Source: Candidatus Bipolaricaulota bacterium | GTDB lineage: Bacteria > Bipolaricaulota > Bipolaricaulia > UBA7950 > UBA9294 | Assembly: GCA_028277345.1 (NCBI GenBank) | Contig: JANQGM010000020.1 | Coordinates: forward strand, 62,001 to 126,000 | Direction: 5' to 3' | Length of the DNA stretch: 64,000 nt | In this document: positions 18,609 to 45,501 of the stretch, one piece after another | Layout of the letters: every line of letters starts with the position of its first letter | How positions within the stretch are numbered: the stretch's first letter is position 1 | Translations under genes and position numbers: made by a program | Notes under the pieces: model-generated | Told to the model about the DNA's origin: nothing | Databases searched by the model: none | What the model saw: the letters and a program-made list of their open reading frames with translations, nothing else

Positions 18609-18609
18609 G

Positions 18610-20028
<1,419 letters not shown>

Positions 20029-20037
20029 GTTTTCTCC

Positions 20038-20574
20038 CTAGCCGAACTTCAGATCCTCGCCCACGAGCTCCGGCTCTTTGCCATCCAGCAAGGCGAGAAT
20101 GGCCTTGGCAATCACGCCAGCGGGCGGCGGACAGCCGTGCAGGAAATACTCCACCGGCACGACCTCATGGACGGGGCGGACACGATCCAGCAAATGCGGA
20201 ACCACATCGTAGGGCAGCTCGCCGTTGGTCGTCGTGCCCTTGCCATAGATATCCTCAATCAGCTTGTCGGTCGGAATGCCGTTGCGCAGTCCGGGGACGT
20301 TGCCCGTAACCGCGCAGTCGCCGAACGAAATGAGGATCTTGGACTTCTCGCGCGCTTCCTTGACGAGATGCAGATGCTCTTCATTGGCCACCGCCCCTTC
20401 GATCAGCGTCACGTCGACTCCACCTTCGGGAAAGACCTTGAGATCGGTGATTGGACTGTTGCACAGTTCGATCTTGCCCGCGAGTTCGATGAGCACCTCG
20501 TCGATGTCGAGAAGAGACATGTGACAGCCGGCACAGCCGCTGAACCACAGGGTGGAGATTTTAACCTTACTCAT
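20038..20574 (-). CDS. hoxY: [NiFe] hydrogenase small subunit (HoxY/HydS-like)
   Basis: WFSGCAGCHMSLLD; SFGDCAVTGNVPG; EYFLHGCPPPA; short 178 aa form. Confidence 0.92.
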   Translation of the reverse strand: MSKVKISTLWFSGCAGCHMSLLDIDEVLIELAGKIELCNSPITDLKVFPEGGVDVTLIEGAVANEEHLHLVKEAREKSKILISFGDCAVTGNVPGLRNGIPTDKLIEDIYGKGTTTNGELPYDVVPHLLDRVRPVHEVVPVEYFLHGCPPPAGVIAKAILALLDGKEPELVGEDLKFG

Positions 20575-21265
20575 GGTCTCTCCTTTCGGTCAGGCGAGCG
20601 ACGAGATCGGAGTCCTTGCGCATCTCGGCATTGGACGCACCCTTGAGCACAATGGCGCCGGTCGGACAAACCTCCACGCACTTGCCGCAGCTGGTGCACG
20701 ACTCCGCTTCGCCCCAATCCGCAGCGAGATCCGTGATCACACGCGCTGAGGATCCGCGTTCCGCGAACCCCCATGTGTGTGCGCCCTCGACCTCGGCGCA
20801 CGTACGCACGCACCGGCCGCACAACACACAGCGATCCCGATCGATCAAGAACCAAGGATGTGTCGCATCGATTCGGTTGCGCGGGTAGGAATACGGCACG
20901 GTAACGGAGTGCATCTCCAGCTCGCACGCCAGATCCTGCAGTTCGCACCCTCCGCTTGACGCGCAGAAGGAACACACATGGTTGCCCTCGGCAAACAGCA
21001 GTTCCAGAATCATTCGCCGATGCACCTTGATCGTGTCGGTCTGCGTCTTGATATCCGCGCCATCCACTGCTTGGGTTGTGCAGGATGGTACGAGCTGTCC
21101 TGCCACCTCGACGATACACAAGCGGCATGCGCCCACATCCGACAGTCCCTCAAGATGACACAGCGTTGGGATGCGTATCCCATTCGCTTCCGCCACCTCA
21201 AGGATCGACTGGCCAGGCGCTGCTGTGATCGTTCGTCCGTCGATCGTCAGCGTGATCGTTTCCAC
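20567..21265 (-). CDS. hoxU: HoxU/HydA-like diaphorase Fe-S subunit
   Basis: GTG start after GGTGGAGG; 2Fe-2S PTLCHLEGLSDVGACRLCIVEV...PSCTT; His-ligated cluster HVCSFCASSGGCELQDLA; 4Fe-4S CVLCGRCVRTC and CTSCGKCVEVCP. Confidence 0.9.
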   Translation of the reverse strand: METITLTIDGRTITAAPGQSILEVAEANGIRIPTLCHLEGLSDVGACRLCIVEVAGQLVPSCTTQAVDGADIKTQTDTIKVHRRMILELLFAEGNHVCSFCASSGGCELQDLACELEMHSVTVPYSYPRNRIDATHPWFLIDRDRCVLCGRCVRTCAEVEGAHTWGFAERGSSARVITDLAADWGEAESCTSCGKCVEVCPTGAIVLKGASNAEMRKDSDLVARLTERRDHE

Positions 21266-21266
21266 G

Positions 21267-28691: not shown

Positions 28692-29858
28692 ATGAGAGTT
28701 CATGAGTATCAGGCGAAGCAACTGTTCGCCGACTACGGGATCCCCGTCGCCGCTTCGGCACCTGCGACATCCGTCGACGAGGCCGTTGCCGCAGCTTCCG
28801 AACTGGGATTCCCTGTCGTCGTCAAGGCCCAGATTCATGCCGGCGGGCGCGGCAAGGGAGGCGGCATTCAGCTGGCCGAGGACGCGACGGATGTCCGCGA
28901 GGCCGCCGCCCGAATCCTCGGCATGACGCTGGTCACGCCGCAGACCGGCCCTGAGGGCCGTGTTGTCCGAACCGTCTTGATCGAATCCGCATCCGACATC
29001 GCGCAGGAGCTGTATCTGGGGATGACCATCGACCGTGCCAATCGCGCCATCACCATCATGGCCTCCCGCGCAGGGGGCGTGGACATCGAGGAAACGGCCC
29101 GGACGAACCCTGACGCGATCCTCAAGGAGACCATCGATCCCCTCCTTGAACTGCGCCCTTTCCAGGCCTTTCGCCTCGCGTGCCGTCTTGGCCTACCGAC
29201 GAAAACGGCGCGCGGCGTCTCCAAATTCATCCAATCGCTCTACAAGCTGTTCCGTGAGAAGGACTGCGTTCTGGCTGAGATCAACCCGTTGGCCATCACA
29301 GCTGACGGCGCGCCCATCGCCATCGACGCTAAGCTCAACCTCGATGACAATGGGCTGTTTCGTCATCCCGAACTGGTCGAACTGCGGGATCTGAATGAAG
29401 AAGATCCTCTTGAAGTGGAAGCCACGGCTGTCAACCTCAACTACATCAAGCTTGAAGGCAATGTCGGCTGCCTCGTGAACGGAGCCGGCTTGGCCATGGC
29501 GACCATGGACCTCATCAAGCACGTCGGCGCCTCTCCCGCCAACTTCTTGGATGTCGGAGGCGGGGCGACGGCAGAGATGATCGAAAAGGGCGTTCATATT
29601 TTGATCGATGATCCGGATGTGAAGGCCGTGTTCATCAACATTTTCGGCGGGATCTTACGTTGCGATGTGTTGGCCGAAGGCGTCGTGGCCGCGGCCAAGA
29701 AGCTCGATGTGAAGGTTCCGGTGATCGTCCGGCTGGAAGGTACGAACGTCGAAGCCGGCCGGCAGATTCTTCAGGAGTCCGGCTTGAGCTTCCGGAGCGC
29801 CGTCGATCTTCGTGAAGCGGCAACCCTGGTTGCCGAAGCCGTAAAGGAGGCGTCGTGA
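28692..29858 (+). CDS. sucC: Succinyl-CoA synthetase (ADP-forming) beta subunit
   Basis: [59 protein letters not shown]. Confidence 0.96.
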
Positions 29859-30721
29859 GCATCCTCATTGGTAGCGATACCCGAGTTCTCGTTCAAGGCA
29901 TCACGGGCAATGAAGGCCGGTTTCATACGCAGCAGATGCTGGACTACGGCACCCACATCGTCGCCGGCGTCACGCCGGGCAAGGGCGGACAAGATGTCGA
30001 GGGCATTCCCGTCTTCGACACCGTCTCCGAGGCGGTTAACGCCACGGGCGCCAATGCATCGATCATTTTCGTGCCTCCCGCATTCTCGGCCGACGCCATC
30101 CTCGAAGCCGCCGACGCCGGCGTGGCGCTCGTCGTGTGCTTGACTGAGGGAATTCCCGTCAACGAGATGCTGGCGATCTGGAAGCACCTTGACTGTCTTG
30201 GCACCCATCTCATCGGCCCCAACACGCCCGGCCTCATCAGCCCCGGAACCTGCAAGCTCGGCGTCATGGCCGGCTATATCCATCAGCCCGGCCCCGTCGG
30301 CATCCTCTCCCGATCGGGCACACTCACCTATGAGGTCGTCCATCAGCTGACATCGCTGGGAATCGGCCAATCGACGTGCGTAGGCATTGGAGGCGATCAG
30401 ATCATCGGATTGTCGTTCTCCGAGCTCTTGCCCATGTTCCAGGCCGATCCAGATACCAAGGGCATCATTCTGATCGGCGAAATCGGCGGCTCGGCGGAAG
30501 AAGAGGCCGCAGAACTGATCGCTCGCGACGTCACCAAACCCGTTGTCGCCTTCATCGCGGGACAGACCGCGCCTCCCGGACGGCGGATGGGGCATGCCGG
30601 CGCCATCATCTCCGGAGGCTCGGGGACTGCGGCGGCGAAGATTGAGGCGCTTGAACGTGCGGGCGTCAAGGTGGCGGCCAGCCCGGCCGATGTGGGTGCA
30701 CTGATGGCCGACATCCTCTAG
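29855..30721 (+). CDS. sucD: Succinyl-CoA synthetase alpha subunit
   Basis: [64 protein letters not shown]. Confidence 0.96.
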
Positions 30722-30845: not shown

Positions 30846-31415
30846 GTGGGAACACCGCGTATGAGAGCAGAGGTACGCTTCGCAGGATTTGGAGGTCAGG
30901 GAATCATCTCAGCGGGCAAGATCGCCGGTCGGGCAGCCTCGATCTACGGCGGGAAGCAAGCTGTGATGATGCAATCTTATGGGCCGGAGGCACGCGGCGG
31001 CGCTTGTAATGCCGACCTCGTGGTTTCCGATGCCGTCATCGGCTACCCACAACTCAGTCAACCCAGCATTCTCGTCATCATGTCTCAAGAAGCCTATGAG
31101 AAATATGGCCAGAATATCGACCACGATGGCACCATGATCGTTGACCAAGATCTGGTCGATTTCGAGGAAATGCCGCCTTCGGTTTCCAAGGTCTATACCG
31201 TGCCGGCAACCCGCCTCGCCGATGAACTTGGCCGAAAGATCGTTGCCAACGTTGTCATGCTCGGCGCCTTGGCCGCCATCACGGAAATCGTCTCACGCGA
31301 TGCCATGCTTGACGCCATTCTTAATTCGGTTCCTCCGCGCACCAAGGACCTCAACGAGCGCGCCTTCGTGACCGGCTACGAAAAAGGAAAGGAGGCGCTG
31401 GGTGAGCACACCTAG
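30846..31415 (+). CDS. korC: 2-oxoacid:ferredoxin oxidoreductase gamma subunit
   Basis: VRFAGFGGQGIISAGKIAGRAASIYGGKQAVMMQSYGPEARGGACNADLVVSD. Confidence 0.9.
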   Translation: MGTPRMRAEVRFAGFGGQGIISAGKIAGRAASIYGGKQAVMMQSYGPEARGGACNADLVVSDAVIGYPQLSQPSILVIMSQEAYEKYGQNIDHDGTMIVDQDLVDFEEMPPSVSKVYTVPATRLADELGRKIVANVVMLGALAAITEIVSRDAMLDAILNSVPPRTKDLNERAFVTGYEKGKEALGEHT

Positions 31416-33360
31416 AATCGGCGTCTTCGTCTGTCATTGTGGACTCAATATCGAACGAACCGTCGACACAGCCCGCGTTGCCGATGCGCTGCGCGAGATG
31501 TCCGGCGTGGCCTATGTCTCAAACTACGACTACATGTGCTCGGATCCGGGACAGCAGCTCGTCTCGGAAGCCATTCGCGACCACCGGCTGACCGGCGTTG
31601 TCATCGCGGCCTGTTCGCCGGCCATGCACGAGCCGACGTTCCGGCGGGCGGCCGAGGATGCGGGCATGAACCCGTACCTGGTCGAGATGGCCAATATCCG
31701 AGAACACTGCAGTTGGGTGCATCTCGATCGCGAGCAAGCCACCGCCAAGGCGATCAGGATCGTTCGCACGATGGTCGAGAAGGTGAAGGGCAACCATCCC
31801 CTCGACCCGGTGAAGATCGACCATGTGGACAAGTGCTTGGTCATCGGCGCCGGCATTACGGGCATCCAAGCGGCGCTCGATGTGGCCGAAGCCGGCTATC
31901 AAGTGCTCCTCGTCGAAAAGGAGCCGTCGATCGGCGGACACATGGCGCAGTTGTCGGAGACCTTTCCGACCCTGGACTGCTCACAGTGCATCCTGACGCC
32001 GAAAATGGTGGAAGCCTCGCGTCATCCGAATATCGAGCTGCTCACCTACAGCGAAGTGCTCGACGTCTCCGGCTATGTCGGCAACTACAACGTCACCATT
32101 CGCAAGAATCCCACGTACGTGGACGCCGAGAAATGCAACCTCTGCGGAGATTGCGAGAAGGTGTGCCCGGAGTCCGTGCCCAGTGAGTTCGAGCGAGGAC
32201 TGACGGAACGCAAAGCCATCTTCATCCCCTTCCAGCAGGCCGTGCCCTCTTCGTACACCTTGGATGAAGGGTCATGTCTGGGATTGCATCCTCTGCGCTG
32301 CAGCGAATGCGCCAAGGTCTGCGAAGTGGGCGCCATCGACTTCGATATGCAGCCCGAGATCCTGGAGGAAGAGGTCGCCGCCATCATCGTGGCGACAGGA
32401 TTCGACCTCTACCCCGTGCTGAATCTCGGGGAATATGGCGCCGGCGACATTCCGGATGTCGTCGATGGGCTGCAGTTCGAGCGGATGCTGTCCGCGTCCG
32501 GCCCAACCGGCGGACACGTCCGCCGCCCCTCGGATGGCAAGGTGCCTGAGCGCGTCGTCTTCGTGCAATGTGCAGGATCGCGAGACCCGGAAAATCACAA
32601 TTCGTACTGCTCGAAAATCTGCTGCATGTACACGGCAAAGCACGCGCTGCTCTACCGCCATGCCGTCCCCGATGCCGAAGCCGTCGTCTTCTACATTGAC
32701 GTTCGCGCCGGAGGCAAGGGGTACGAGGAGTTCATCCAGAACGCGACGGAGCACGAACAGATCCGCTACTTGCGCGGCAAGGTCGCCAAGATCTATCAAG
32801 ACGGCGACAAGGTCATGCTCTGGGGCGTCGATACGCTGTCCGGCCAGAAGGTGGAGATCGAGGCCGATCTCGTCGTCTTGGCCATGTCGATGGATCCTCA
32901 TCCCAGCACGGAAGCGCTGACCAAGATCCTCAAGATCAGCTGCGGGGGTGAAGGCTTCCTTAAAGAAGCACACCCCAAGCTGCGGCCGGTCGAATCGCTG
33001 ACAGCCGGGATCTATGTCGCGGGCGCCGGACAAGGCCCCAAGGACATTCCCGAATCCGTCGCTCAGGGAAGCGGCGCGGCCGCCAAGGCCATCGCCTTGC
33101 TTTCTCAAGACAAGCTCTCGCATTCCCCCGAAACCGCCTTTATCGATGAGACGATTTGCGGAGGATGCGGCGTGTGCGTGGGCATGTGCCCGTACACGGC
33201 GCTGTCGCTCACGGCATCCGGCGTTGCGGAGTGCAATGAGGTGCTCTGCGAGGGCTGCGGCACCTGCGTGTCGTCCTGCCCCACCGGCGCGGCGCAGATG
33301 AAGAATCAAACCGATTTCCAACTCCGAGAAATGATCGAGGTGGCACTCGCAGATGGATAA
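31402..33360 (+). CDS. hdrA: Heterodisulfide reductase subunit A-like (FAD, multiple 4Fe-4S)
   Basis: VGVFVCHCGLNI-type start; VIGAGITGIQAALDVAEAGYQVLLVEKEPSIGGHMAQLSETFPTLDCSQCILTPKM; CNLCGDCEKVCP; C-terminal CGGCGVCVGMCP...CEGCGTCVSSCP. Confidence 0.95.
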   Translation: MSTPRIGVFVCHCGLNIERTVDTARVADALREMSGVAYVSNYDYMCSDPGQQLVSEAIRDHRLTGVVIAACSPAMHEPTFRRAAEDAGMNPYLVEMANIREHCSWVHLDREQATAKAIRIVRTMVEKVKGNHPLDPVKIDHVDKCLVIGAGITGIQAALDVAEAGYQVLLVEKEPSIGGHMAQLSETFPTLDCSQCILTPKMVEASRHPNIELLTYSEVLDVSGYVGNYNVTIRKNPTYVDAEKCNLCGDCEKVCPESVPSEFERGLTERKAIFIPFQQAVPSSYTLDEGSCLGLHPLRCSECAKVCEVGAIDFDMQPEILEEEVAAIIVATGFDLYPVLNLGEYGAGDIPDVVDGLQFERMLSASGPTGGHVRRPSDGKVPERVVFVQCAGSRDPENHNSYCSKICCMYTAKHALLYRHAVPDAEAVVFYIDVRAGGKGYEEFIQNATEHEQIRYLRGKVAKIYQDGDKVMLWGVDTLSGQKVEIEADLVVLAMSMDPHPSTEALTKILKISCGGEGFLKEAHPKLRPVESLTAGIYVAGAGQGPKDIPESVAQGSGAAAKAIALLSQDKLSHSPETAFIDETICGGCGVCVGMCPYTALSLTASGVAECNEVLCEGCGTCVSSCPTGAAQMKNQTDFQLREMIEVALADG

Positions 33361-33796
33361 CAAACACGAAGCTCACGAACCCCGCATCGTCGCTTTCCTA
33401 TGCCGATGGTGCTCGTATGCGGGTGCAGACCTGGCCGGCGTCAGCCGCCTAACCTATCCGCCCAATGTCGTTCCCATGCGCGTAAACTGCTCGGGGCGCG
33501 TCGACGCGGACATGGTGCTCTCCGCCCTAGAGAAGGGCGCGGACGGCGTGCTGATCGGCGGATGCCATCCAGGAGACTGTCACTACGTCTCCGGAAACTA
33601 CAAGACGCGCCGGCGGATTGCCCTGCTCAAGCAAGCACTGTCCGAAGTCGGACTCGATCCACGCCGCGTTCATCTCGAATGGATCAGCGCATCCGAAGGC
33701 ATCAAGTTCCAGGAGACGATGACGTCCTATACCGAACTCATCCGCGAATTGGGACCGAGTCCGGTGCGCGCGACCAAGGAGGCCGTCCATGGCTAA
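33353..33796 (+). CDS. mvhD: MvhD-like [2Fe-2S] electron-transfer subunit
   Basis: IVAFLCRWCSYAGADLAG; GGCHPGDCHYVSGNYKTRRRIALLKQ. Confidence 0.93.
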   Translation: MDNKHEAHEPRIVAFLCRWCSYAGADLAGVSRLTYPPNVVPMRVNCSGRVDADMVLSALEKGADGVLIGGCHPGDCHYVSGNYKTRRRIALLKQALSEVGLDPRRVHLEWISASEGIKFQETMTSYTELIRELGPSPVRATKEAVHG

Positions 33797-34757
33797 GGCG
33801 AAGATCGGCATCTACTGGGCCGCCGCCTGCGGTGGCTGCGACTGCGCCTTGCTCGAGGTCGATGAACAGATCCTCGACGTCGTGGCTGCAGCCGATATCT
33901 TGCTCTGGCCCTGCGCCGCAGATCCCAAGTACAAGGATCTGCGCGAGTACAAGAACGGCGAAATCGACATCGTGCTGTTCAACGGCGCCATCCGGACGGA
34001 AGAGAATCGCGAACTGGCCCGCTTGATCCGCGAGAAGACGAAGTATCTCGTGGCCTTCGGCTCCTGCGCGCAATCGGGCGGCGTCATCGGCCTGGCAAAT
34101 CAATCGTCGAAAGAGGAGATCTTCAGCACGGTTTTCGGCGATACGAAGCATTGGCCGCAACAGAACTCCGTGGCCGATGGCTACGAGCTGGAGTTGCCGG
34201 AATTTTTGCCGAAGCTGACACACCTCGCCGATGTGGTTGAGGTGGATTACGTCGTGCCGGGATGCCCTCCGCCGAAGGAGGTCGTCTCCGAGCTGTTTAC
34301 GGCGCTGGTCGATGGCAACTTGCCTCAAACCGGCACCGTTTTCGCGTCGTCAAAGAACCTCTGCGAAGAGTGCTCGCGCGAACGCGAACAGAAGAAGATC
34401 ACTCAGATCCTTCGCCCGCACGAACACGAACCCGATCCGGAGAAATGCCTGCTCGATCAGGGGTTCATGTGCATGGGACCGGCCACGCGCGGGGGATGCC
34501 TCGCCGTCTGTCCGGCCGCCAACATGCCGTGCACCGGGTGTGCGGGCCCGACCGCCAATGTTCGCGATCAAGGCGCCGCCATGTTGAATACGGTCGCGTC
34601 GCTGATCGGAACCGGCGAAGAGGGTGAAGACCAACTGGAAGCCGAAGACGCCATCCTGGCGCAATTCGATGATATCGTCGGCACGTTCTATCGATTCGGT
34701 TCGGCGACGTCGATCTTCAAGGAAAGGTATCATGAGCAAAACAGTCCAGCACGTTAG
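33789..34757 (+). CDS. mvhG: [NiFe] hydrogenase small subunit (MvhG-like, group 3)
   Basis: YWAAACGGCDCALLEVDE; FGSCAQSGGVIG; PGCPPPKEVV; CEECSRERE; CMGPATRGGC. Confidence 0.92.
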   Translation: MAKAKIGIYWAAACGGCDCALLEVDEQILDVVAAADILLWPCAADPKYKDLREYKNGEIDIVLFNGAIRTEENRELARLIREKTKYLVAFGSCAQSGGVIGLANQSSKEEIFSTVFGDTKHWPQQNSVADGYELELPEFLPKLTHLADVVEVDYVVPGCPPPKEVVSELFTALVDGNLPQTGTVFASSKNLCEECSREREQKKITQILRPHEHEPDPEKCLLDQGFMCMGPATRGGCLAVCPAANMPCTGCAGPTANVRDQGAAMLNTVASLIGTGEEGEDQLEAEDAILAQFDDIVGTFYRFGSATSIFKERYHEQNSPAR

Positions 34758-36198
34758 CATCGATCCGATCACGCGTCTTGAGGGACACGGCCGCATCGAA
34801 CTGTTCCTGGACGACGACGGCAATCTCGCCGATGCCTTCTTCCAGATTCCCGAGTTGCGCGGGTTTGAGCAGTTTTGCGTGGGACGCCAGGGCGAGGATA
34901 TGCCCCAGATCACCGAGCGAATCTGCGGTGTCTGCCCGGAGGCGCACCACTATGCGTCGACCAAGACGCTCGACGACTGCTACAATGCGCCGCCGACGCC
35001 CCGGGCCAAGGCGCTGAGGGAACTGCTCTACAACGCCTACATCTTCTCCGACCATCTGCTGCACTTCTATTACCTCGGCGGACCCGATTTTCTCGTCGGA
35101 CCGTATGCCCCGCCGCAGGAACGCAATATCGTTGGCGTGATCGGCAAGGTCGGATTGGAGCTGGGCAAGGAAGTCATCAAACATCGTTCCTATGGCCAGA
35201 AGATCATTGAGATCATCGGCGGCCGCCCCATCCACCCGGTGACCGGGATTCCTGGCGGTCAGTCCAAGGGCATTACCGAGGACGAGCAGAATGAGATCCG
35301 CACGATGGCGGCCTCATGCCTGGAGTTCGCTCAAGCGACACTGGGCGTATTCAACGACGTTCTTCTCAAGGACGATACCTACAAACGGTTCATCTCCGAG
35401 AACGCCCACATGATGCCGACCTATTACATGGGCCTCGTCGATGAGGAAGGATCGATCAACTACTACGATGGCGATGTCCGCATCGTCGGGCCGGATGGCT
35501 CCGAATTCGCCCAAGTTCCAGGCTCGGAAACCCTGAGCCTTATTGATGAGCGCACGGAACCCTGGACGTACGTCAAGATCCCTTATCTCAAGGACGTGGG
35601 ATGGAAGGGCTTCGTCTCGGGGCCGGATTCCGGCGTGTACCGTGTGGGTCCGTTGGCGCGGCTCAACGTCTGCAAGCAAATCGGCACACCGTTGGCACAG
35701 AAACAGTATGAGGCCTTCCTCGAGTACTTCGGCGGAGGCCCTGTTCATGCCACGTTCGCCTACCATTGGGCGCGGCTCATTGAGATGCTCTCGGCGGCCG
35801 AACGCGTTGCTGCACTGGTCGAGCACCCCGACCTCATGACGGGTCCGTTGCGCACGCCGTTGGGTGCGCCGAGCGAGGGCGTCGGGGTCATCGAAGCCGC
35901 CCGCGGCGTACTCCTTCACCACTACGATCTCGATGACCGCGGACGCATCAACTCCGCGAATCTGATCGTCGCCACCACACACAATGTGGCCGGCATCTCC
36001 ATGTCCATCAAGGACATGGCGACGGCGGTCGTGGAGAACGGTGTCGTCGACGACGGCATCCTCAATCTCGTGGAGATGAGCTTCCGCAACTACGATCCTT
36101 GCTTGGCTTGCGCGACCCATGCCCTGCCCGGCCAGATGCCGTTGCTCGTTCAGGTTCACGATGCGCAAGGCTCCGTTTGCCAAAGGATCGAGCGATGA
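34732..36198 (+). CDS. mvhA: [NiFe] hydrogenase large subunit (MvhA-like, group 3)
   Basis: ISIDPITRLEGHGRI-type start; RICGVCPEAHHYAS and DPCLACATHALPGQMPLLV motifs. Confidence 0.93.
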   Translation: MSKTVQHVSIDPITRLEGHGRIELFLDDDGNLADAFFQIPELRGFEQFCVGRQGEDMPQITERICGVCPEAHHYASTKTLDDCYNAPPTPRAKALRELLYNAYIFSDHLLHFYYLGGPDFLVGPYAPPQERNIVGVIGKVGLELGKEVIKHRSYGQKIIEIIGGRPIHPVTGIPGGQSKGITEDEQNEIRTMAASCLEFAQATLGVFNDVLLKDDTYKRFISENAHMMPTYYMGLVDEEGSINYYDGDVRIVGPDGSEFAQVPGSETLSLIDERTEPWTYVKIPYLKDVGWKGFVSGPDSGVYRVGPLARLNVCKQIGTPLAQKQYEAFLEYFGGGPVHATFAYHWARLIEMLSAAERVAALVEHPDLMTGPLRTPLGAPSEGVGVIEAARGVLLHHYDLDDRGRINSANLIVATTHNVAGISMSIKDMATAVVENGVVDDGILNLVEMSFRNYDPCLACATHALPGQMPLLVQVHDAQGSVCQRIER

Positions 36199-36656
36199 GG
36201 CAACTCATCATCGGATGGGGCAATCCCATCGCTGGAGACGACGGCATCGGACCTCGCGCCGCGGAGTTGGCGGCCGAACGCGTCCCAGCTCACGTTGACG
36301 TTCGATCGTGCTCCCACGCCGGTCTCCGGCTGGTCGAGCTAATGCGCGGCTACGATCGCGTCCTGATCGCGGATGTTCGAATCGACGATGGGGATGCGAA
36401 GCTTCGAAAAGAGATCCTTCGCCCACACGATGAGGAGGCCTCTTTGCCGACGCGGCACGATGGAACGCTCCGCGAAGCGCTCAATGCCTTTCGCACGCTT
36501 CGCGATCCCGAACTTCCCGATGAGATCGTTCTTTTCAGTACACCGATCGCGGCTCCGACGACATGGAATGCTGCATTGTCTCAAGGTGGCGAGGCCGCGG
36601 CGGAACGATTGGCCGACGCTGTGATTCGAGAATTGGAGGTGACGGCCGTTGTCTAA
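36195..36656 (+). CDS. Hydrogenase maturation endopeptidase
   Basis: MRQLIIGWGNPIAGDDGIGPRAAELAAE; ATGA overlap with mvhA. Confidence 0.9.
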   Translation: MRQLIIGWGNPIAGDDGIGPRAAELAAERVPAHVDVRSCSHAGLRLVELMRGYDRVLIADVRIDDGDAKLRKEILRPHDEEASLPTRHDGTLREALNAFRTLRDPELPDEIVLFSTPIAAPTTWNAALSQGGEAAAERLADAVIRELEVTAVV

Positions 36657-37047
36657 GACGAAAGCCGTTTCAGCGGAGAACTTGCGCGCTCGCGTTGAGG
36701 AGCTGTCCGGAGAGAACGTCTTCGCCTGCTATCAATGCGGCATGTGCGCCGCCGGGTGTCCGCTGGCCGATGAGATGGATCGACTGCCAAGCCAGGTCAT
36801 CCGCGACTTGCAACTGGAGGACATCACGCTGCTCGACTCCAACGCGCCGTGGGTCTGCGCCAGTTGCCTCGCTTGCGAGGTTCGATGTCCCAAGGGCGTT
36901 GACTTGGCCAAGTTGATGGAGGCGCTTCGCCAGCTTCACCTTCGCAAGGAGCTGGACCACATGTCGATCGATGACATGAGCCACGACGAGATCAGGAAGC
37001 TGCCGCAAATTGCGTTGGTGGCGAGCTTCCGAAAGAAGACGGGATAG
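36649..37047 (+). CDS. hdrC: Heterodisulfide reductase subunit C-like
   Basis: CYQCGMCAAGCPLADEMD...CASCLACEVRCPKGVDLAKLMEALR. Confidence 0.93.
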   Translation: MSKTKAVSAENLRARVEELSGENVFACYQCGMCAAGCPLADEMDRLPSQVIRDLQLEDITLLDSNAPWVCASCLACEVRCPKGVDLAKLMEALRQLHLRKELDHMSIDDMSHDEIRKLPQIALVASFRKKTG

Positions 37048-37050
37048 CCG

Positions 37051-37932
37051 ATGAAGACCATTCCCTACTTCCCGGGCTGCAGCCTGAAGGATACAGCGAC
37101 ACCGTTCGAAACCTCGGCCCAGTTCGTCATGGAGAAGCTCGGACTTGCCCTCGCCGAATTGGATCGTTGGAATTGCTGCGGCACGGTGTCGTCGCTCACG
37201 TCGGACGATCTCATGCACCATCTCGCGGCAGTCCGAAACTTCGTTCGCGTTCAAGATCTCGGCGAAACCGAGTTGGTCGCCCTGTGCGCCATGTGCTACA
37301 ACACGCTTGCGCGGACCGCGCAGCGGGTCAACGGCGATGACGCCGATCGCGACAAGATCAACCAATTCATGGATCGTGAATCCGATTACGTCGGGGACGT
37401 CAAGATCGTGCACCTCCTCCAGGTGCTTCGGGATCGAATCGGCTGGGAGACCTTGGCCGAGCACAGCACCGTCAATTTGAACGGCCTCAATGTCGCCTGC
37501 TATTACGGCTGCACACTGGTTCGTCCCAAGAGCGTCGGCATCGACGACGCGGAGAATCCGACCTTGATGGACGATGCATTGGAGGCCGTCGGCGCCACGC
37601 CTCGCGCCTTCCCCTTTGCCACCGAGTGCTGCGGCACCTACCAAGTTGTCGATCGCCGAGACTTATCCATTGAGCATTCGTTCCGGATCCTGCAATCGGC
37701 AGCGCGAACGGGCGCGGACGTCATTGCCACCGCATGCCCTCTCTGCCAGCACAACCTGCAGGAAGCTCAGCGCGAGCTTTCCGGCATGGAAAACATCCGA
37801 GATCTTGAGATCGTGTACTTCACGGAGCTGCTCGGCGCAGCCCTGGGCATGGATCCCACAGCATTGCCGGAACGAATCACTCAATCGCTTCAAACGACCG
37901 CCGCGGCGCAAGCCGACCAGGGAGGCAATTAG
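37051..37932 (+). CDS. hdrB: Heterodisulfide reductase subunit B-like (two CCG domains)
   Basis: FPGCSLKD...WNCCGTV...CAMC and ACYYGCTLVRP...ECCGTY...CPLC. Confidence 0.94.
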   Translation: MKTIPYFPGCSLKDTATPFETSAQFVMEKLGLALAELDRWNCCGTVSSLTSDDLMHHLAAVRNFVRVQDLGETELVALCAMCYNTLARTAQRVNGDDADRDKINQFMDRESDYVGDVKIVHLLQVLRDRIGWETLAEHSTVNLNGLNVACYYGCTLVRPKSVGIDDAENPTLMDDALEAVGATPRAFPFATECCGTYQVVDRRDLSIEHSFRILQSAARTGADVIATACPLCQHNLQEAQRELSGMENIRDLEIVYFTELLGAALGMDPTALPERITQSLQTTAAAQADQGGN

Positions 37933-37933: not shown

Positions 37934-38629
37934 ATGACCGAAGAGAAGCTGACACAGATATTCGTCATGGGCAAGGCGTACGATGTGCCGGCCGGTATCA
38001 CGATTATGGATGCCATGGAGTACGCCGGCTATCGCTTCGTGCGCGGAGCGGGGTGCCGTTCCGGGTTCTGCGGCGCCTGTGGTACCGTGTACCGCAAGGA
38101 CGGCGACTACCGCCTCGAATTCGCACTGGCGTGCCAGGAGATGGTGGAAGAGGGCATGCACCTCACGCAGATCCCCTTCACACCCGCCCCGCGTTCGGAC
38201 TATCAGCTGAACGAACTCGACGCCGCCGAAAACGTGCTGTTGCAACACTACCCGGCGATCGCCCGTTGCGTCTCGTGCAATACGTGCACCAAGGCGTGTC
38301 CCCAAGACATTGAAGTCATGGACTATGTCCAAGCGGCGTTGCGCGGCGACCTCAAGCGGGTGGCCGAGCTGTCGTTCGACTGCATCCAATGCGGCTTGTG
38401 CGCCATGCGCTGTCCCGCCGACATCAAGCACTACCACCTCTCCCAGATGGCCAGGCGGCTGTACTCGGTGACGGAATCGCCCGAGCCCGCGCATCTGACC
38501 GCGCGAATGGCTGAGCTGGGCGATGGCGCCTACGATGCCGAACTCGATGAGATGATGTCCATGACCCTCGATCAACTAAAGCAACGCTACGCAGAGCGCG
38601 TCATTGAGAAGGAAGGGGAGGCACTGTGA
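37934..38629 (+). CDS. FrdB/SdhB/TfrB-like iron-sulfur protein (2Fe-2S plus two 4Fe-4S motifs)
   Basis: GCRSGFCGACG...LAC; CVSCNTCTKACP; CIQCGLCAMRCPADIKHY. The ORF track start (37574) is extended; ATG at 37934 preceded by GGAGG. Confidence 0.85.
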   Translation: MTEEKLTQIFVMGKAYDVPAGITIMDAMEYAGYRFVRGAGCRSGFCGACGTVYRKDGDYRLEFALACQEMVEEGMHLTQIPFTPAPRSDYQLNELDAAENVLLQHYPAIARCVSCNTCTKACPQDIEVMDYVQAALRGDLKRVAELSFDCIQCGLCAMRCPADIKHYHLSQMARRLYSVTESPEPAHLTARMAELGDGAYDAELDEMMSMTLDQLKQRYAERVIEKEGEAL

Positions 38630-40296
38630 GCCAGGCAACCGCGGGAGGACTGAAGGGCGGATATCCCGATTACATGCGGGAATCCATCGCCAAGGTCGAG
38701 GCAACGCGTGCGCAGCGCTTGAAGGACGGGTCTCCCAAGGCCATGACGGCCGACCAGCGCGAAGAGGTGCTTCAAGCGTGGCATCCCGATTACAAGGCAG
38801 ACAAGAAGCGGGCACTCAGTGTCGGCCCCTCCAAGGGCGAATTGATGCCGCACGAAGTGGCCGACCTGTTCGAGGCCTATCCGGTCATCGATCCGAAAGT
38901 CATTGACCTGTCATCGCCCGATATCGAGACCCAAGTCTTGATCCTCGGCGGCGGCGGAGCGGCGTCCGTCGCGGCGCTGTTCGCGCATGAAGAGGGCATT
39001 CCCGCCGAAGACATCCTCATGATCACGAAGCTCCGCCACGGCGACTGCAACTCGGTGATGGCCCAGGGAGGCATCCAGGCGGCCGATCGCGCGCCCGATT
39101 CTCCCGCCATTCACTATCTGGACGTGCTGGGCGGCGGACACTACACCAACAACCCGGACCTCGTGAAGGCGCTCGTCAACGACGGCCCGTTGATGATCGA
39201 TTGGCACGAGAAGCTGGGCGCACTCTACGACAAGGTGGACGGCGAGTACTTGGAAGCCCATGGCGGAGGAACCTCTCGGATGCGCATGCATTCGGCCAAG
39301 GACTACACGGGCATGGAACTGATGCGCGTCATTCGCGATGAAGTCCGCAATGTCGGCATCCCTGTGATCGAATTCGTCCCGGCCGTCGAGCTGCTTCTGG
39401 ATGAAGGTGGCCGCGCCGCCGGCGCCCTTCTCTACAACCTGGAGACCGAGGAATACATCGTCGTCAAGGCAAATGCCACCGTGCTCGCGACCGGCGGGTT
39501 CGGACGCCTCCATATTCAGGGCTTTCCGACCACCAATCATTACGGGGCCACCGCCGACGGCCTGATCATGGCCTATCGGGCCGGCGTCCGCGTCATCGAC
39601 ATGGATTCGGTCCAGTATCACCCCACCGGCGTCGCCTATCCGGCCGCCATCCTCGGGCAACTGGCCACCGAGAAGCTGCGCAATCAAGGCGCTGAGCCCG
39701 TCAATATCGAGGGCGAATCCTTCGTCTATCCGCTGGAACCCCGCGATGTCGAGGCCGCCGCCATCATTCGCGAGTGCTACGGTCACGAGAAGGGGATCAC
39801 GACACCGTCCGGTATTCGCGGCGTGTGGCTCGATACCCCGATGATCGACGCCATTCATGGTAAGGGAACCTTGAAGAGCCGACTGGCTGCCATGTGGATG
39901 ATGTGGAGCCGCCATGGCATCGACATCACCGTCGATCCGGCCCTCGTCTTCCCCACCCTGCACTATCAGAACGGGGGCGTCGAGATCGATGCCAACGGAT
40001 GTACGGCGGTTCCCGGACTGTTCGCCGGCGGAGAAGTCGCAGGCGGCGTCCATGGGAAGAACCGATTGATGGGCAACTCACTGCTCGATTACAACGTGTT
40101 CGGCCGGCGCGCGGGCATCGCCGCCGCCCACTGGGCGAAGGCAAACGCCGCCAAGGCGCCGACGCTCAAACACATTGATGCATTCACGGACGATCTCACC
40201 TCGGCAGGCATCGAACCCAGCCGCAAGGCGCCGATGATCCTGCCCAATTACCGTCGAGAAGAGGTTCTGGATCGACGGCTTGAGATCCTGACGTAG
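38626..40296 (+). CDS. Fumarate reductase/succinate dehydrogenase-type flavoprotein
   Basis: ILGGGGAASVAALFA; NSVMAQGGIQAA; YHPTGVAYPA; VHGKNRLMGNSLLDYNVFGRRAG. Confidence 0.92.
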   Translation: MSQATAGGLKGGYPDYMRESIAKVEATRAQRLKDGSPKAMTADQREEVLQAWHPDYKADKKRALSVGPSKGELMPHEVADLFEAYPVIDPKVIDLSSPDIETQVLILGGGGAASVAALFAHEEGIPAEDILMITKLRHGDCNSVMAQGGIQAADRAPDSPAIHYLDVLGGGHYTNNPDLVKALVNDGPLMIDWHEKLGALYDKVDGEYLEAHGGGTSRMRMHSAKDYTGMELMRVIRDEVRNVGIPVIEFVPAVELLLDEGGRAAGALLYNLETEEYIVVKANATVLATGGFGRLHIQGFPTTNHYGATADGLIMAYRAGVRVIDMDSVQYHPTGVAYPAAILGQLATEKLRNQGAEPVNIEGESFVYPLEPRDVEAAAIIRECYGHEKGITTPSGIRGVWLDTPMIDAIHGKGTLKSRLAAMWMMWSRHGIDITVDPALVFPTLHYQNGGVEIDANGCTAVPGLFAGGEVAGGVHGKNRLMGNSLLDYNVFGRRAGIAAAHWAKANAAKAPTLKHIDAFTDDLTSAGIEPSRKAPMILPNYRREEVLDRRLEILT

Positions 40297-40304: not shown

Positions 40305-40598
40305 ATGGCAACCGTAGTCACGAAACGGTGGAAGACGAAACACGGGTACCTCTACATCCAGGAGGATGAGTGCAAGGGCTGCAACTTCTGCATCGAGTTC
40401 TGTCCCAAGAAGGTGTTGGAACGCTCCGAGCAGTTCAATGCCAAGGGCTACTACCCGCCCGTTGTCACGGATGCAGAGGGATGCGTCAACTGCACGTTCT
40501 GCGAACTCATCTGTCCAGATTTCGCCATCTGGAGCGAGAAGACAGAAGAGTCCGACGGCGCAGACGAATCCGAAACCAAGGACGTGAGCCATGGGTAA
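40305..40598 (+). CDS. korD: 2-oxoacid:ferredoxin oxidoreductase delta (ferredoxin) subunit
   Basis: CKGCNFCIEFCPKKVLERS...CVNCTFCELICPDFAI. Confidence 0.9.
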   Translation: MATVVTKRWKTKHGYLYIQEDECKGCNFCIEFCPKKVLERSEQFNAKGYYPPVVTDAEGCVNCTFCELICPDFAIWSEKTEESDGADESETKDVSHG

Positions 40599-41748
40599 AC
40601 GAATCCTCGAAGGCACCCACTTCATGAACGGCGACGAGGCCTGCGCAGAAGGCGCCGTGGCCGCTGGGTGCAACCTATTCGCCGGCTATCCGATCACACC
40701 TCAGTCCGAGATTGCCGAGCGGATCTCCGTTCGTCTTCCGCAAGTCGGCGGCGTCTTCATTCAGATGGAAGATGAAATCTCGTCCATGGCCGCCGTTCTT
40801 GGAGGCGCCTGGGCGGGCGAAAAGTCGATGACGGCGACATCCGGTCCCGGATTCTCGCTGATGATGGAAAACCTCGGCTTGGGACTGATGACCGAGACGC
40901 CCTGCGTACTCATCAACATTCAACGTGGCGGCCCGAGCACCGGACTTCCCACGCTCGTTGGGCAGGCGGACATGATGCAGGCGCGCTGGGGATCGCACGG
41001 CGACTACGGCATCATCGCACTGGCGCCGTCCTCTCCTCAGGAATCGTTCGAGCTGACCATCGAAGCCTTCAACCTCTCGGAGACCTATCGCTTGCCCGTG
41101 CTCGTCATGTCGGACGAAGTTGTCGGCCACATGTACGAACGCGTCGACATCGATCCGGACAAGATTCATACCGTGGAGCGCAAGAAGCCGAATCTGCCGC
41201 CGGGTGAATTCTTGCTGTACAAGGCGGACGAGAACCTCGTCCCCATGGGCATGCCGGCGTTTGGCGACGGCTACAAGGTGCACGTTACCGGTCTGACGCA
41301 CGACGAACGCGGCTATCCGATCATCAATGCCGAGACGCAGCAAGAAAACGTCGTTCGCATCAAGGACAAGATCTACAAGAACATCGACGACATCACTCAC
41401 ATCGAGGAAACGGCCATGGAGGATGCTGAGGTTGTTATCGTCACCTACGGCATCTCCGCTCGAACCTCATTGGGCGCGCTCAATCTGGCCCGCGACAAGG
41501 GCCTGAAGGTGGGCATGCTCAGGCTGGTCACGGTCTGGCCGTTCCCCGAATCCATCATCAAGGACCTCGCCAAGAACGTGGCTGGGTTTGTGGTGCCGGA
41601 GATCAACCTTGGACAGATCGTCCAGGAAGTCGAGCGCGCCGTGTGTGGCGAAGCGCATGTGAAGTCCGTCCCGCATCCGGGAGGGGAAATTCACGATCCG
41701 CGCGTCATTCTCAGCGCCATTGAGGAGGTCTTGGCTCATGCCAACTAA
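40591..41748 (+). CDS. korA: 2-oxoglutarate (2-oxoacid):ferredoxin oxidoreductase alpha subunit
   Basis: FMNGDEACAEGAVAAGCNLFAGYPITPQSEIAE; IQMEDEISSMAAVLGGAWAGEKSMTATSGPGFSLMMENLG. Confidence 0.94.
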   Translation: MGKRILEGTHFMNGDEACAEGAVAAGCNLFAGYPITPQSEIAERISVRLPQVGGVFIQMEDEISSMAAVLGGAWAGEKSMTATSGPGFSLMMENLGLGLMTETPCVLINIQRGGPSTGLPTLVGQADMMQARWGSHGDYGIIALAPSSPQESFELTIEAFNLSETYRLPVLVMSDEVVGHMYERVDIDPDKIHTVERKKPNLPPGEFLLYKADENLVPMGMPAFGDGYKVHVTGLTHDERGYPIINAETQQENVVRIKDKIYKNIDDITHIEETAMEDAEVVIVTYGISARTSLGALNLARDKGLKVGMLRLVTVWPFPESIIKDLAKNVAGFVVPEINLGQIVQEVERAVCGEAHVKSVPHPGGEIHDPRVILSAIEEVLAHAN

Positions 41749-42619
41749 ATCCAAAGCGTTGCCAACGCCCGAGGTTTTCGACGATGTACGGCATCCCATG
41801 GAGAAGTTCCTCCGCATGGATCGCCTGCCCCATATCTGGTGCTCCGGGTGTGGGCTCGGGACAACGCTGTCCTGTTTCACCTATGCGCTCGACGAACTGG
41901 AGCTTACGGACGCCGACGTCGGCGTCGTCTCCGGCATCGGGTGCACGGGCCGAGCCGCCGGCTATCTGAACCTCGACTCGTACCACACGACCCACGGTCG
42001 CGCCATTGCCTTTGCCACCGGTCTTGCCGTCGCGAAACCGGACAAGAAGGTCGTCGTAATCTCGGGGGATGGCGATCTGTTCGCCATTGGAGGCAATCAC
42101 TTCATCCATGCCGCTCGACGCAACGTCAACATGACCGTCCTTTGCGTCAATAACTTCAACTACGGGATGACGGGCGGTCAATTCGGGCCGACAACGCCGA
42201 TCGGACAACGCGGAACCACGGCCCCCTACGGCAACTTCGAAAACCCGTTCAACCTGCCCTACCTGGCCGCATCGAGCGGCGCCGTGTACGTGGCCCGATG
42301 GACGAGCCTCGACGCACGCCGCGTCAAAGAGGCGATGATCGAAGCCCTCCAACGTCCCGGCTTCTCGTTCGTCGAGATCGTATCGCCCTGTCCCACCAAC
42401 TACGGACGGCGGAACCGCATCGGCGACGGCCTGGACGAGTTGCGCTACTACCAGGAAAAGACGGTCATCAAGCACGGCTCCGATCCTAAGTACGCGGATT
42501 TGGGACCCGGCAAGGAAATCGCCGTCGGCTGTTTTGTCGACCAGCCTCGTCCGACGTATCTTGATCTCTACAACGAACTGGTCGTCGAGAAGAACAAGTT
42601 CGAAAAGCCGTCCGCCTAG
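41738..42619 (+). CDS. korB: 2-oxoglutarate (2-oxoacid):ferredoxin oxidoreductase beta subunit (TPP)
   Basis: HIWCSGCGLGTTLSCF; SGDGDLFAIGGNHFIHAARRNVNMTVLCVNNFNYGMTGGQFGPTTP. Confidence 0.94.
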   Translation: MPTKSKALPTPEVFDDVRHPMEKFLRMDRLPHIWCSGCGLGTTLSCFTYALDELELTDADVGVVSGIGCTGRAAGYLNLDSYHTTHGRAIAFATGLAVAKPDKKVVVISGDGDLFAIGGNHFIHAARRNVNMTVLCVNNFNYGMTGGQFGPTTPIGQRGTTAPYGNFENPFNLPYLAASSGAVYVARWTSLDARRVKEAMIEALQRPGFSFVEIVSPCPTNYGRRNRIGDGLDELRYYQEKTVIKHGSDPKYADLGPGKEIAVGCFVDQPRPTYLDLYNELVVEKNKFEKPSA

Positions 42620-42632
42620 GACAAGGAGTCAC

Positions 42633-43499
42633 ATGAGTTCGATGATGATTGGTGCGGCGCTCGTCGCCGCCTTGAAACGCGCGGCCACCGTCCTTCCGGA
42701 CGATGTCGTCGTCGCGCTGAAGGCCGCCCGCCAGCGGGAGACGTCGGACATGGGCGCGGCCCAGCTCGACGCCATCCTGGAGAACGTCAACGTCGCCCGC
42801 GAAGGTGCCATCCCGATGTGCCAAGACACCGGCATTCAGACCTTCTTCGTGAAGGCGGGCGTAAACAGCCCCCATCTCAAGGAGTTGCGTTCGTGGATCG
42901 AAACCGCCGTCATCGACGCGACGGCAGCGATTCCCCTGCGTCCGAATACCGTCGACCCGTTCTCCGGAAAGAACCCGGGGGATAATTCGGGGCGCTTCAT
43001 GCCCTTCATCAACTGGGAACTCGTCGATGGAGATGATGTCGAGATCTCCGTTCTGCCCAAGGGTGGAGGCTCCGAGAACATGTCGACCCTCAAGATGCTG
43101 CCTCCCGGCGTTGGATTGAAGGGAATCAAGAAGGCGGTCGTCGAGCACATTGTCTCGTGCCAAGGCAAGCCATGCCCTCCCACCATTGTCGGCGTGGGCA
43201 TCGGCGGCGGCGCGGATATCGCCCTCAAATTGGGCAAGAAGGCCGTGCTACGCCCCATCGGTTCCCATCACGAAACGCCTGAAGCCGCTGCCATGGAGCA
43301 AGAGATGCTTGAGCTCGTCAATGCCACCGGCGTCGGTCCCATGGGCGTCGGCGGCGCCACCACATGCCTCGCCGTTCACATCGAGTACGCGCATCGTCAT
43401 CCGGCGTCGCTGCCGCTTGGCATTCTCGTGCAGTGTTGGGCCGACCGCCGGGCCAGCGTACGGCTGAAGGCCGACGGAACCGCGGAGGTGATCGCCTGA
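42633..43499 (+). CDS. Fumarate hydratase alpha subunit (class I, two-subunit)
   Basis: PMCQDTGIQTFFVKAG; GKNPGDNSGRFMPF; PKGGGSENMSTLKMLPPG; GVGIGGGADIALKLGKKA. Confidence 0.93.
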   Translation: MSSMMIGAALVAALKRAATVLPDDVVVALKAARQRETSDMGAAQLDAILENVNVAREGAIPMCQDTGIQTFFVKAGVNSPHLKELRSWIETAVIDATAAIPLRPNTVDPFSGKNPGDNSGRFMPFINWELVDGDDVEISVLPKGGGSENMSTLKMLPPGVGLKGIKKAVVEHIVSCQGKPCPPTIVGVGIGGGADIALKLGKKAVLRPIGSHHETPEAAAMEQEMLELVNATGVGPMGVGGATTCLAVHIEYAHRHPASLPLGILVQCWADRRASVRLKADGTAEVIA

Positions 43500-44101
43500 T
43501 GCGACGCGACATTACACTTCCCGTCACTGAGTCCGACGCCCGCGAGTGGCGCGTCGGAGACATCCTTTTCTTGACAGGCACCATTTTCACGGCCCGCGAT
43601 GAAGCCCATCTCCTGATGATGGAGAAGCAGGAATCCGGCGAAGGCATTCCCTTCGATCCGTCGACCATGGCCCTGTTTCATTGCGGTCCCGTCGTCAGTC
43701 CGGAGGGTGACGGATGGAAGGTCATTGCCGCCGGTCCCACGACCTCCATCCGCATGGAGATCTTCGAGGACAAATACCTTGAGATGTTCCGCCCTCCCAT
43801 CATCATCGGGAAGGGTGGCATGGCGGATCGGACCCAGGCAGCTCTGGAATCGGTCGGCGCCGTGTACACGCACTATACGGGCGGAGCCGGAGCGTTAGCG
43901 GCCAAGCGCATCGAAGCCGTCGAAGGCGTGGAGTGGTTGGAGGAACTGGGCATGCCCGAGGCCGCCTGGTTCTTCAAGGTAGCTGATTTCGGTCCCTTGC
44001 TGGTCACCATGGATTCAGCCGGGGGCAATCTCTATAAGGATCTCGAACCCACGATCGCGGAGAACGTGAAGTCTGTGCTGGCGCGCATTGACGCCGGCTA
44101 G
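43499..44101 (+). CDS. Fumarate hydratase beta subunit (class I)
   Basis: GDILFLTGTIFTARDEAHLLM; HCGPVVSP; AGPTTSIRMEIFEDKYLEMFRPPIIIGKGGM. Confidence 0.93.
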   Translation: MRRDITLPVTESDAREWRVGDILFLTGTIFTARDEAHLLMMEKQESGEGIPFDPSTMALFHCGPVVSPEGDGWKVIAAGPTTSIRMEIFEDKYLEMFRPPIIIGKGGMADRTQAALESVGAVYTHYTGGAGALAAKRIEAVEGVEWLEELGMPEAAWFFKVADFGPLLVTMDSAGGNLYKDLEPTIAENVKSVLARIDAG

Positions 44102-44130: not shown

Positions 44131-45501
44131 ATGGTATCGGACGAACATCTATCGGTAGAAGAACGGATTGCGCGCGCCAAGGTCCCGGGAAAGAAGGCCC
44201 CGGGGATGCACGCGTTCTATCGAGGCAAAGTGGAAACGACGCTGAAGTGCTCCATCAACAGCTTCGATGATTTCGGTATTTGGTACACGCCCGGTGTGGC
44301 CACGCCCTGTCGCGAGATTCATGCCGATCCCGCCAAGGCCTTCGAGTACACCAACAAAGCCAACGCCATCGCCGTTGTTTCGGACGGCTCGCGCGTGTTG
44401 GGATTGGGCAACATCGGCCCCATGGCCGGTCTGCCGGTGATGGAGGGCAAGTCGCTGCTGTTCAAGTATCTCGGCGGCGTTGGCGCCTTCCCCATCGTTC
44501 TCGATACCCAGGATCCGGATGAGATCATTCAAGCCGTCAAGTGGATGGCCCCCGGCTTCGGCGGCATCAACCTTGAGGACTTTGCCAATCCGAAGTGCTT
44601 CTACATTCTCGACCGGCTTCGAGAAGAGCTCGATATCCCGGTATGGCATGACGACCAGCAAGGAACCGCGTCCATCACCTTGGCTGGCGTGATCAACGCC
44701 GTGAAGCTTGTCGGCAAGGATCTGGACAAGGTGACCTACTCGGTCATCGGATCCGGCGCCGCCAATATCGCCTTCGTACGCATCCTGATCCGCGCCGGCG
44801 TACCCGCCGGGAACATCATCCTGGTCGATTCCAAGGGCATTCTCCATCCGGGACGAGAGGATCTGGAAGCCGACAAGGCGAACAACCCCTACAAATGGCA
44901 ATACGCCGTCGAGACCAATGCCGAGGGTCGAACCGGAGGCATGGCGGAAGCGATTGCCAACACGGACGTGCTCATCGCCGCCTCCAAACCCGGTCCGGAC
45001 ACGATCAAGAAGGAATGGCTGACCGCCATGAACAAGGATGCCATTGCATTCGTCATGGCCAATCCGATCCCCGAAATCTGGCCTTGGGAAGCCAAGGAAG
45101 CGGGCGTACGCGTCGTCGGAACCGGCCGATCCGATTTTGCCAACCAGATCAACAACTCGATCGGGTTCCCCGGCATCTTCCGCGGGACGCTCGACGTGTT
45201 CGCCAAGACCATCACGGATGAGATGGCCATTGCCGCCGCCTACTCGATCGCCAAGACCGCGGAAGCCAAGGGGCTTCACGAGGAATACATCGTTCCCACC
45301 ATGCTGGAGACCGATGTGTTCATCAACGAGGCCGTCGATGTGGGAATGAAGGCCATCGAGCAGGGCATTGCGCGTCGAATTCTGACGGAAGACCAGCTTC
45401 GCGCCGAAGCCGAAGCCAAGATCCTCCATGCCCAAGCGGAAACCAAAACCCTCATGGACGCCGGCATCATCGCCGCGGCGCCAGACATCAAGATCGACTG
45501 A
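44131..45501 (+). CDS. NAD(P)-dependent malic enzyme
   Basis: WYTPGVATPCREI; DGSRVLGLGNIGPMAGLPVMEGKSLLFKYLGGV; HDDQQGTASITLAGVINAVKL; MANPIPEIWPWEAKEAG. Confidence 0.94.
   Translation: MVSDEHLSVEERIARAKVPGKKAPGMHAFYRGKVETTLKCSINSFDDFGIWYTPGVATPCREIHADPAKAFEYTNKANAIAVVSDGSRVLGLGNIGPMAGLPVMEGKSLLFKYLGGVGAFPIVLDTQDPDEIIQAVKWMAPGFGGINLEDFANPKCFYILDRLREELDIPVWHDDQQGTASITLAGVINAVKLVGKDLDKVTYSVIGSGAANIAFVRILIRAGVPAGNIILVDSKGILHPGREDLEADKANNPYKWQYAVETNAEGRTGGMAEAIANTDVLIAASKPGPDTIKKEWLTAMNKDAIAFVMANPIPEIWPWEAKEAGVRVVGTGRSDFANQINNSIGFPGIFRGTLDVFAKTITDEMAIAAAYSIAKTAEAKGLHEEYIVPTMLETDVFINEAVDVGMKAIEQGIARRILTEDQLRAEAEAKILHAQAETKTLMDAGIIAAAPDIKID

Follow-up and report, generated by a model that had tools for sequence, protein, structure and literature searches.

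A predicted cytoplasmic fumarate reductase encoded with Hdr and [NiFe] hydrogenase genes in Bipolaricaulota and its relatives

We describe an operon in a Bipolaricaulota MAG (2.76 Mb, 89.6 % complete) in which a FrdA/FrdB pair lies among genes for HdrABC, MvhADG and a 2-oxoacid:ferredoxin oxidoreductase (Kor), and we favour, with some reserve, the reading that the products form a cytoplasmic Mvh–HdrABC–FrdAB complex, which would bifurcate electrons from H2 to ferredoxin and fumarate. Complex formation, bifurcation and the use of H2 are what we infer from gene content and gene order. Since Hdr-linked fumarate reductases were proposed earlier (for Pseudoclostridium thermosuccinogenes, tubeworm symbionts and Celaenobacter), the operon is a distinct and widespread variant of these systems and not a new category.

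The operon in the window

Within the window (the whole stretch of 64 000 nt that was analysed), the genes run contiguously on the forward strand in the order sucC–sucD–korC–hdrA–mvhD–mvhG–mvhA–protease–hdrC–hdrB–frdB–frdA–korA–korB–fumA–fumB–mae. Succinyl-CoA synthetase is encoded by sucC (beta, 28692–29858; 543.7 bits) and sucD (alpha, 29855–30721; assigned from sequence and synteny), and korC (30846–31415), for the gamma subunit of Kor, is recognized by sequence and conserved position. There follow hdrA (31402–33360; HdrA2-type, 807 bits), whose product has FAD and ferredoxin domains and is the presumed bifurcating flavoprotein, mvhD (33353–33796; MvhD/FlpD electron-transfer subunit, 179.7 bits), mvhG (33789–34757; hydrogenase small subunit, Oxidored_q6), mvhA (34732–36198; large subunit of an MvhA/VhuA-type [NiFe] hydrogenase, in which both ligand motifs, RICGVC and DPCLAC, are present) and a hydrogenase maturation protease gene (36195–36656; TIGR00072, 66 bits; start codon chosen within the ORF 36099–36656). 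HdrC (36649–37047) carries two 4Fe-4S motifs, CYQCGMCAAGC and CASCLACEVRC, and HdrB (37051–37932) has two CCG domains, in which both non-cubane cluster motifs are complete (C10, C42, C43, C79, C82 and C154, C193, C194, C229, C232) and invariant in 23 homologues. HdrB, HdrC and MvhA thus retain their cofactor motifs, and HdrA, HdrB, HdrC and MvhD/G/A match their own families. Downstream of frdBA lie korA (40591–41748; 2-oxoacid:acceptor oxidoreductase alpha, NF006412, 557.6 bits), korB (beta, 41720–42619; sequence and synteny), the class I fumarase genes fumA (alpha, 42633–43499; TIGR00722, 352 bits; start codon chosen within the ORF 42534–43499) and fumB (beta, 43499–44101; sequence and synteny; start codon chosen within the ORF 43364–44101), and a malic enzyme gene, mae (44131–45501), whose best match, NF009501 at 305.7 bits, is below the cut-off. 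The first-pass annotation had taken frdBA wired to hdrCB as the unit; this was right as far as it went but too short, the meaningful unit adding hdrA, mvhDGA and kor.

Elsewhere in the window, on the reverse strand, a second hydrogenase-like cluster (16161–23093) comprises two Nuo51/NADH_4Fe-4S proteins and a NiFeSe_Hases large subunit, and is possibly an NAD-linked or bifurcating [NiFe] hydrogenase; the same strand encodes a DUF362 protein with a 4Fe-4S domain (62278–63447).

The FrdB and FrdA subunits

FrdB (231 aa; 37934–38629, forward strand, overlapping frdA by 4 nt) consists of a 2Fe-2S ferredoxin domain with the plant-type motif CRSGFCGAC...C67 and, in the region that Pfam assigns to 4Fe-4S dicluster domains, two CxxCxxCxxxCP motifs, CVSCNTCTKACP (residues 112–123) and CIQCGLCAMRCP (residues 150–161). 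That FrdB combines a 2Fe-2S site with two canonical 4Fe-4S motifs had been claimed from the first reading, and the claim holds with exact coordinates, all 12 cysteines being invariant in 36 of 36 aligned homologues. Alignment with Escherichia coli FrdB and SdhB shows that the second motif is still spaced C-x5-C-x3-CP, like the 3Fe-4S site. The additional Cys153 falls on a Val in FrdB (CTFVGYC) and an Ile in SdhB (CHSIMNC) and so supplies a fourth ligand at the third cluster; the three-cysteine 3Fe-4S site of classical complex II is therefore not what FrdB has, the fourth cysteine, C153, being present in 36/36. The valine of E. coli FrdB is Val207 of the literature numbering, and its exchange for Cys turns the 3Fe-4S cluster into a low-potential 4Fe-4S cluster. 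The predicted structure of FrdB, modelled without cofactors, is of moderate quality (pLDDT 79, pTM 0.56); a sequence search of the PDB returned ferredoxin-type matches only, and Foldseek with this moderate model domain-level matches only. Stop codons that seem to lie within FrdB of some relatives were attributed to overrun of the match, as frdB directly adjoins frdA there.

FrdA (556 aa; 38626–40296, forward strand, GTG start) is a flavoprotein in which Pfam finds FAD_binding_2 only, with no match to Succ_DH_flav_C, the C-terminal domain of SdhA. The alignment puts Asn142 (CNSV) where E. coli SdhA/FrdA have the covalent His (SHTV), as had been noticed at first sight, and Asn occupies this position in 81 of 81 family members, so the covalent His typical of classical complex II is absent throughout the alignment. 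Loss of active-site residues had been named beforehand as grounds for abandoning a fumarate reductase assignment and was not seen: the catalytic His, Glu and Arg are intact, the equivalents H332, E349, R352, H446 and R480 being conserved among family members (at H332, 80 His and one undetermined residue) as in complex II. Considering that the 12 cysteines persist in 36 homologues, the Asn in 81/81 and the catalytic residues throughout, we regard these features of FrdB and FrdA as real and not due to chance. The family has, in addition, its own invariant residues (W193, H222, H305 and K478, the last within GKNRL, which reads GANRL in all reference proteins) and a conserved N-terminal extension of ~100 aa (residues 1–100), which is predicted to be ordered (pLDDT ~90 from residue 11 on) and has no Pfam match and no credible PDB match. 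By inspection, no twin-Arg (Tat) motif is present at the FrdA N terminus. The AlphaFold model of FrdA (pLDDT 79.9, pTM 0.83) finds its best structural match in E. coli QFR (1kf6; E 5e-29, TM ~0.6).

Complex II variants without covalent FAD still reduce fumarate but no longer oxidize succinate (PMC5773532), and the 8-methylmenaquinol:fumarate reductase (MFR) of Wolinella, which has Ala at the FAD slot and a ten-Cys HdrB-like subunit, reduces fumarate only (PMC2680327). By analogy with these mutants and with the Wolinella enzyme, FrdAB would be better suited to fumarate reduction, in keeping with the initial suggestion.

Family placement and conservation of gene order

In a quick maximum-likelihood tree of 35 family rows with E. 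coli SdhA, FrdA and NadB, archaeal NadB-like and TfrA-like sequences and the host paralogues, the 35 FrdA rows form one side of a fully supported branch with a long stem, so that FrdA is a clade of its own, separate from the references used (SdhA/FrdA, NadB and TfrA-like); the tree has SH-aLRT support only and long reference branches, and TfrA is represented in it not by a genuine Methanothermobacter protein but by one TfrA-like sequence (L121; 668 bits, below the TfrA cut-off). The phylum-mates of the Methanofastidiosum genome are mostly genomes with NadB-like matches. The expectation that FrdA would fall with Frd/Tfr rather than NadB is borne out in part, as it does stand apart from NadB, with no clustering with aspartate oxidase, but it stands equally apart from classical Frd/Sdh and from the TfrA-like reference. 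For FrdA, every NCBIfam model stays below its cut-off, the best being TfrA (303 vs 718 bits); the corresponding scores are 250 vs 452.75 bits for FrdA with nadB, 33.9 vs 385 bits for FrdB with TfrB, and 162 vs 1100 and 129 vs 500 bits for the MFR models SdhA and SdhE. Two identities were considered and rejected: NadB, given the score of its model and the separate clade, and classical complex II, given the Asn at the flavin slot, the separate clade and models below cut-off.

Gene order was compared in the best 80 of 383 FrdA-relative stretches of the species-genome collection, picked by FrdA similarity alone; these loci span Bipolaricaulota, Thermoplasmatota, Chloroflexota, archaeal lineages that NCBI places in Methanobacteriota, and others. 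Among these best 80 of 383, frdB adjoins frdA in 70/71 loci, hdrB lies upstream of frdA within 6.5 kb in 59/66 (of the seven loci with no hdrB so near, three have hdrCB slightly farther upstream) and hdrC upstream in 57/64; within the fetched flanks of the 50 well-flanked loci, hdrA and mvhD are present in 46, kor in 35 and mvhA/mvhG in 32, the last pair being absent from about one third. A single-contig genome (G038) of the same class as the host has the complete series of genes from korC to that for malic enzyme. frdAB thus shares one operon with hdrABC and an electron-input module, the arrangement that characterizes the proposed Hdr-linked bifurcating fumarate reductases, and the early proposal that FrdAB is wired to HdrC/HdrB carriers gains support from a gene order conserved in two domains of life.

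The mvhA slot of two relatives (L027:6686–7990 and L033:about 6722–7990) holds MvhA-like proteins (28–29 % identity) in which neither NiFe ligand motif survives; in the L027 protein Pfam finds no hydrogenase match either. The adjacent MvhG retains 14 cysteines. These would be catalytically dead hydrogenase large subunits kept in an Hdr–Frd operon, which recalls NuoD of complex I. H2 cannot be the universal donor, given that about one third of the loci have no MvhA/G and that the MvhA of two relatives lacks NiFe ligands, and the loci without MvhA/G imply that the electron donor is exchangeable. At two such loci (L103:5117–9169 and L073:15386–16513) a second HdrA-like or an FrhB/FdhB-like protein is encoded near mvhD, which suggests other electron inputs. 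In Ca. Mnemosynella (L034:14190–16136), a protein with a CCG domain, similar to TfrB in its C-terminal half (316 bits), is encoded beside frdA–hdrA, which suggests an alternative HdrB-like partner.

The operon contains no SdhC/D-like membrane anchor gene, as the first-pass annotation had stated, and genome-wide the only anchor model used, Sdh_cyt (PF01127), has no match in the 89.6 % complete host MAG at E≤0.1 (the control matched 11/14 genomes). Three other SdhA-like proteins of the host (G000:C14:49511–61109 and C8:36281–37528; L119, L120) all lack the catalytic His/Arg, have 2Fe-2S SdhB-like neighbours and read ARSG/ARCG at the flavin slot, and the host SdhB-like ORFs (PF13085) contain the 2Fe-2S part only in the aligned frame. 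Given these paralogues, the 2Fe-2S-only ORFs and the missing Sdh_cyt anchor, the FrdAB of the window is the only catalytically complete Frd/Sdh found in the host. CdhC of the Wood–Ljungdahl pathway was not found in the host genome, nor was a gene for coenzyme M synthesis of the ComA type in 30 Bipolaricaulota relatives; in the search for ATP citrate lyase the control matched nowhere.

Proposed mechanism and its bearing

We suggest that FrdAB may function as a cytoplasmic fumarate reductase with non-covalent FAD, fed by HdrABC–MvhADG rather than by quinol. MvhA would oxidize H2, and MvhG/MvhD would relay the electrons to the FAD of HdrA, where they would bifurcate, one branch reducing ferredoxin and the other passing through HdrC, HdrB, FrdB (4Fe-4S, 4Fe-4S, 2Fe-2S) and FrdA to fumarate, which would take the place of CoM-S-S-CoB as high-potential acceptor (net: 2 H2 + fumarate + Fd(ox) → succinate + Fd(red)2− + 2 H+). 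SucCD could then convert succinate to succinyl-CoA and the ferredoxin pair drive KorABC to 2-oxoglutarate. Since one turnover would yield one succinate and one reduced ferredoxin pair, both consecutive reductions to 2-oxoglutarate would be paid for, and the gene set probably allows cells to power two consecutive steps of carbon metabolism simultaneously with hydrogen. The direction towards fumarate reduction is likewise inferred: ΔG calculated from textbook potentials lies between −70 and −85 kJ/mol for standard H2 and between −24 and −40 kJ/mol for 1 Pa H2, which favours forward and disfavours reverse operation, and the behaviour of non-covalent complex II variants and of Wolinella MFR favours the same direction.

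The bifurcating reading has to be weighed against others, the best of which we still hold to be unlikely: HdrCB–FrdBA may be a separate thiol:fumarate reductase that oxidizes a small dithiol at the non-cubane clusters of HdrB, the disulfide being recycled by Mvh–HdrA. A disulfide substrate is possible because HdrB keeps both of these clusters (both CCG motifs), TfrA is the HMM closest to FrdA, and the methanogen enzyme operates in this way, Heim et al. having reportedly found in 1998 that it oxidizes thiols and reduces fumarate. Yet FrdA and FrdB score far under the TfrA and TfrB cut-offs, ComA was absent from the 30 Bipolaricaulota genomes, and at most loci a complete HdrA–MvhD input for HdrCB lies in the same operon. 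The frequency of that input (HdrA and MvhD accompany frdA in 46/50 well-flanked loci), with the need of Kor in the same operon for low-potential ferredoxin, also makes rather improbable a linear, non-bifurcating soluble enzyme fed by NADH or ferredoxin in the style of Hydrogenobacter FrdABCDE, with Mvh/HdrA serving another acceptor, even if several loci without MvhA/G mean that other donors exist. Quite improbable is a confurcating reverse reaction, in which a syntrophic fermentative cell would oxidize succinate and Kor-reduced ferredoxin to make H2; the stoichiometric match to Kor would hold in reverse too, and a host without CdhC may be fermentative, but the Asn at the flavin slot predicts that succinate oxidation is lost (PMC5773532) and the reaction would be 24 to 40 kJ/mol uphill even at 1 Pa H2. 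That FrdA has another unsaturated acid as its substrate, or resembles aspartate oxidase, for which its family-specific invariant residues and the 250 bits of the NadB HMM might speak, is scarcely credible beside neighbours that are fumarase, SucCD, Kor and malic enzyme, an FrdB partner and a clade separate from NadB.

Compared with known systems, the bifurcating complex proposed here would share its logic with methanogen HdrABC–MvhADG (PDB 5odc), of which HdrA, HdrB, HdrC, MvhD, MvhG and MvhA all have homologues in the operon; the difference is the acceptor, presumably fumarate via the added FrdB/FrdA, in a host that shows no ComA. A Flx–Hdr–fumarate reductase was proposed for P. thermosuccinogenes (as relayed by PMC7282089, citing 10.20944/preprints201912.0288.v1) and Flx–Hdr–TfrAB–KorABCD, with Kor interspersed, for tubeworm symbionts (PMC6315080). 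Both place a fumarate reductase in an operon with a bifurcating Hdr complex, the symbionts also with Kor, and both have NADH input (FlxABCD) in place of the [NiFe] hydrogenase, the likeness being one of description. In gene content, the Mvh–Hdr–TFR–OGOR cluster of Ca. Celaenobacter (Cloacimonadota; PMC8542988) is similar, uniting Mvh, Hdr, fumarate reductase, OGOR, fumarase and succinyl-CoA synthetase, whereas heterodisulfide is kept there as the acceptor in place of the fumarate proposed here. MFR (SdhABE) of Wolinella/Campylobacter likewise has non-covalent FAD and a ten-Cys HdrB-like subunit (PMC2680327), traits that recur here in the missing His and in HdrB, but it is Tat-exported, membrane-attached and quinol-linked, and the scores with its HMMs are far below their cut-offs. 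Methanogen TfrAB is soluble and combines FrdB-like and HdrB-like functions, but TfrB is one fused chain, whereas hdrB and frdB are separate genes here with no such fusion, FrdA and FrdB are well below the TfrA/TfrB cut-offs, and the N-terminal extension of FrdA falls outside the TfrA match. The methanogen thiol:fumarate reductase carries a 2Fe-2S and two 4Fe-4S clusters. The features first singled out are real but less exceptional than was implied, non-covalent FAD with an HdrB-like partner being known from MFR and the cluster set from methanogen TFR. We found no biochemical proof of an Hdr-linked fumarate reductase in the open-access literature.

HdrABC–MvhADG genes occur widely among organisms that are not known to produce CoM-S-S-CoB. 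Papers on Mvh–Hdr in Bipolaricaulota draw no link to fumarate (PMC6092417, PMC11287216), one of them, a recent MAG paper, assigning heterodisulfide as the acceptor (PMC11287216) and the other reporting no annotated SDH/FRD in an Acetothermia genome (PMC6092417). The conserved hdrCB–frdBA unit offers fumarate as a testable Hdr acceptor. Finally, we put at about even the chance that the soluble FrdA clade, recognizable by its invariant Asn and its N-terminal extension, provides Mvh–HdrABC with a standard module for the high-potential acceptor in many anaerobes of both domains, coupling H2-driven fumarate reduction 1:1 with the ferredoxin of 2-oxoglutarate synthase and explaining what Hdr would reduce where CoM and CoB are lacking. 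If the proposal is true, H2 would meet the cost of two steps in succession on the reductive branch to 2-oxoglutarate, and would do so in matching stoichiometry. This would have a bearing on the carbon metabolism of anaerobes that live on little energy and on how the reductive TCA cycle developed early on.
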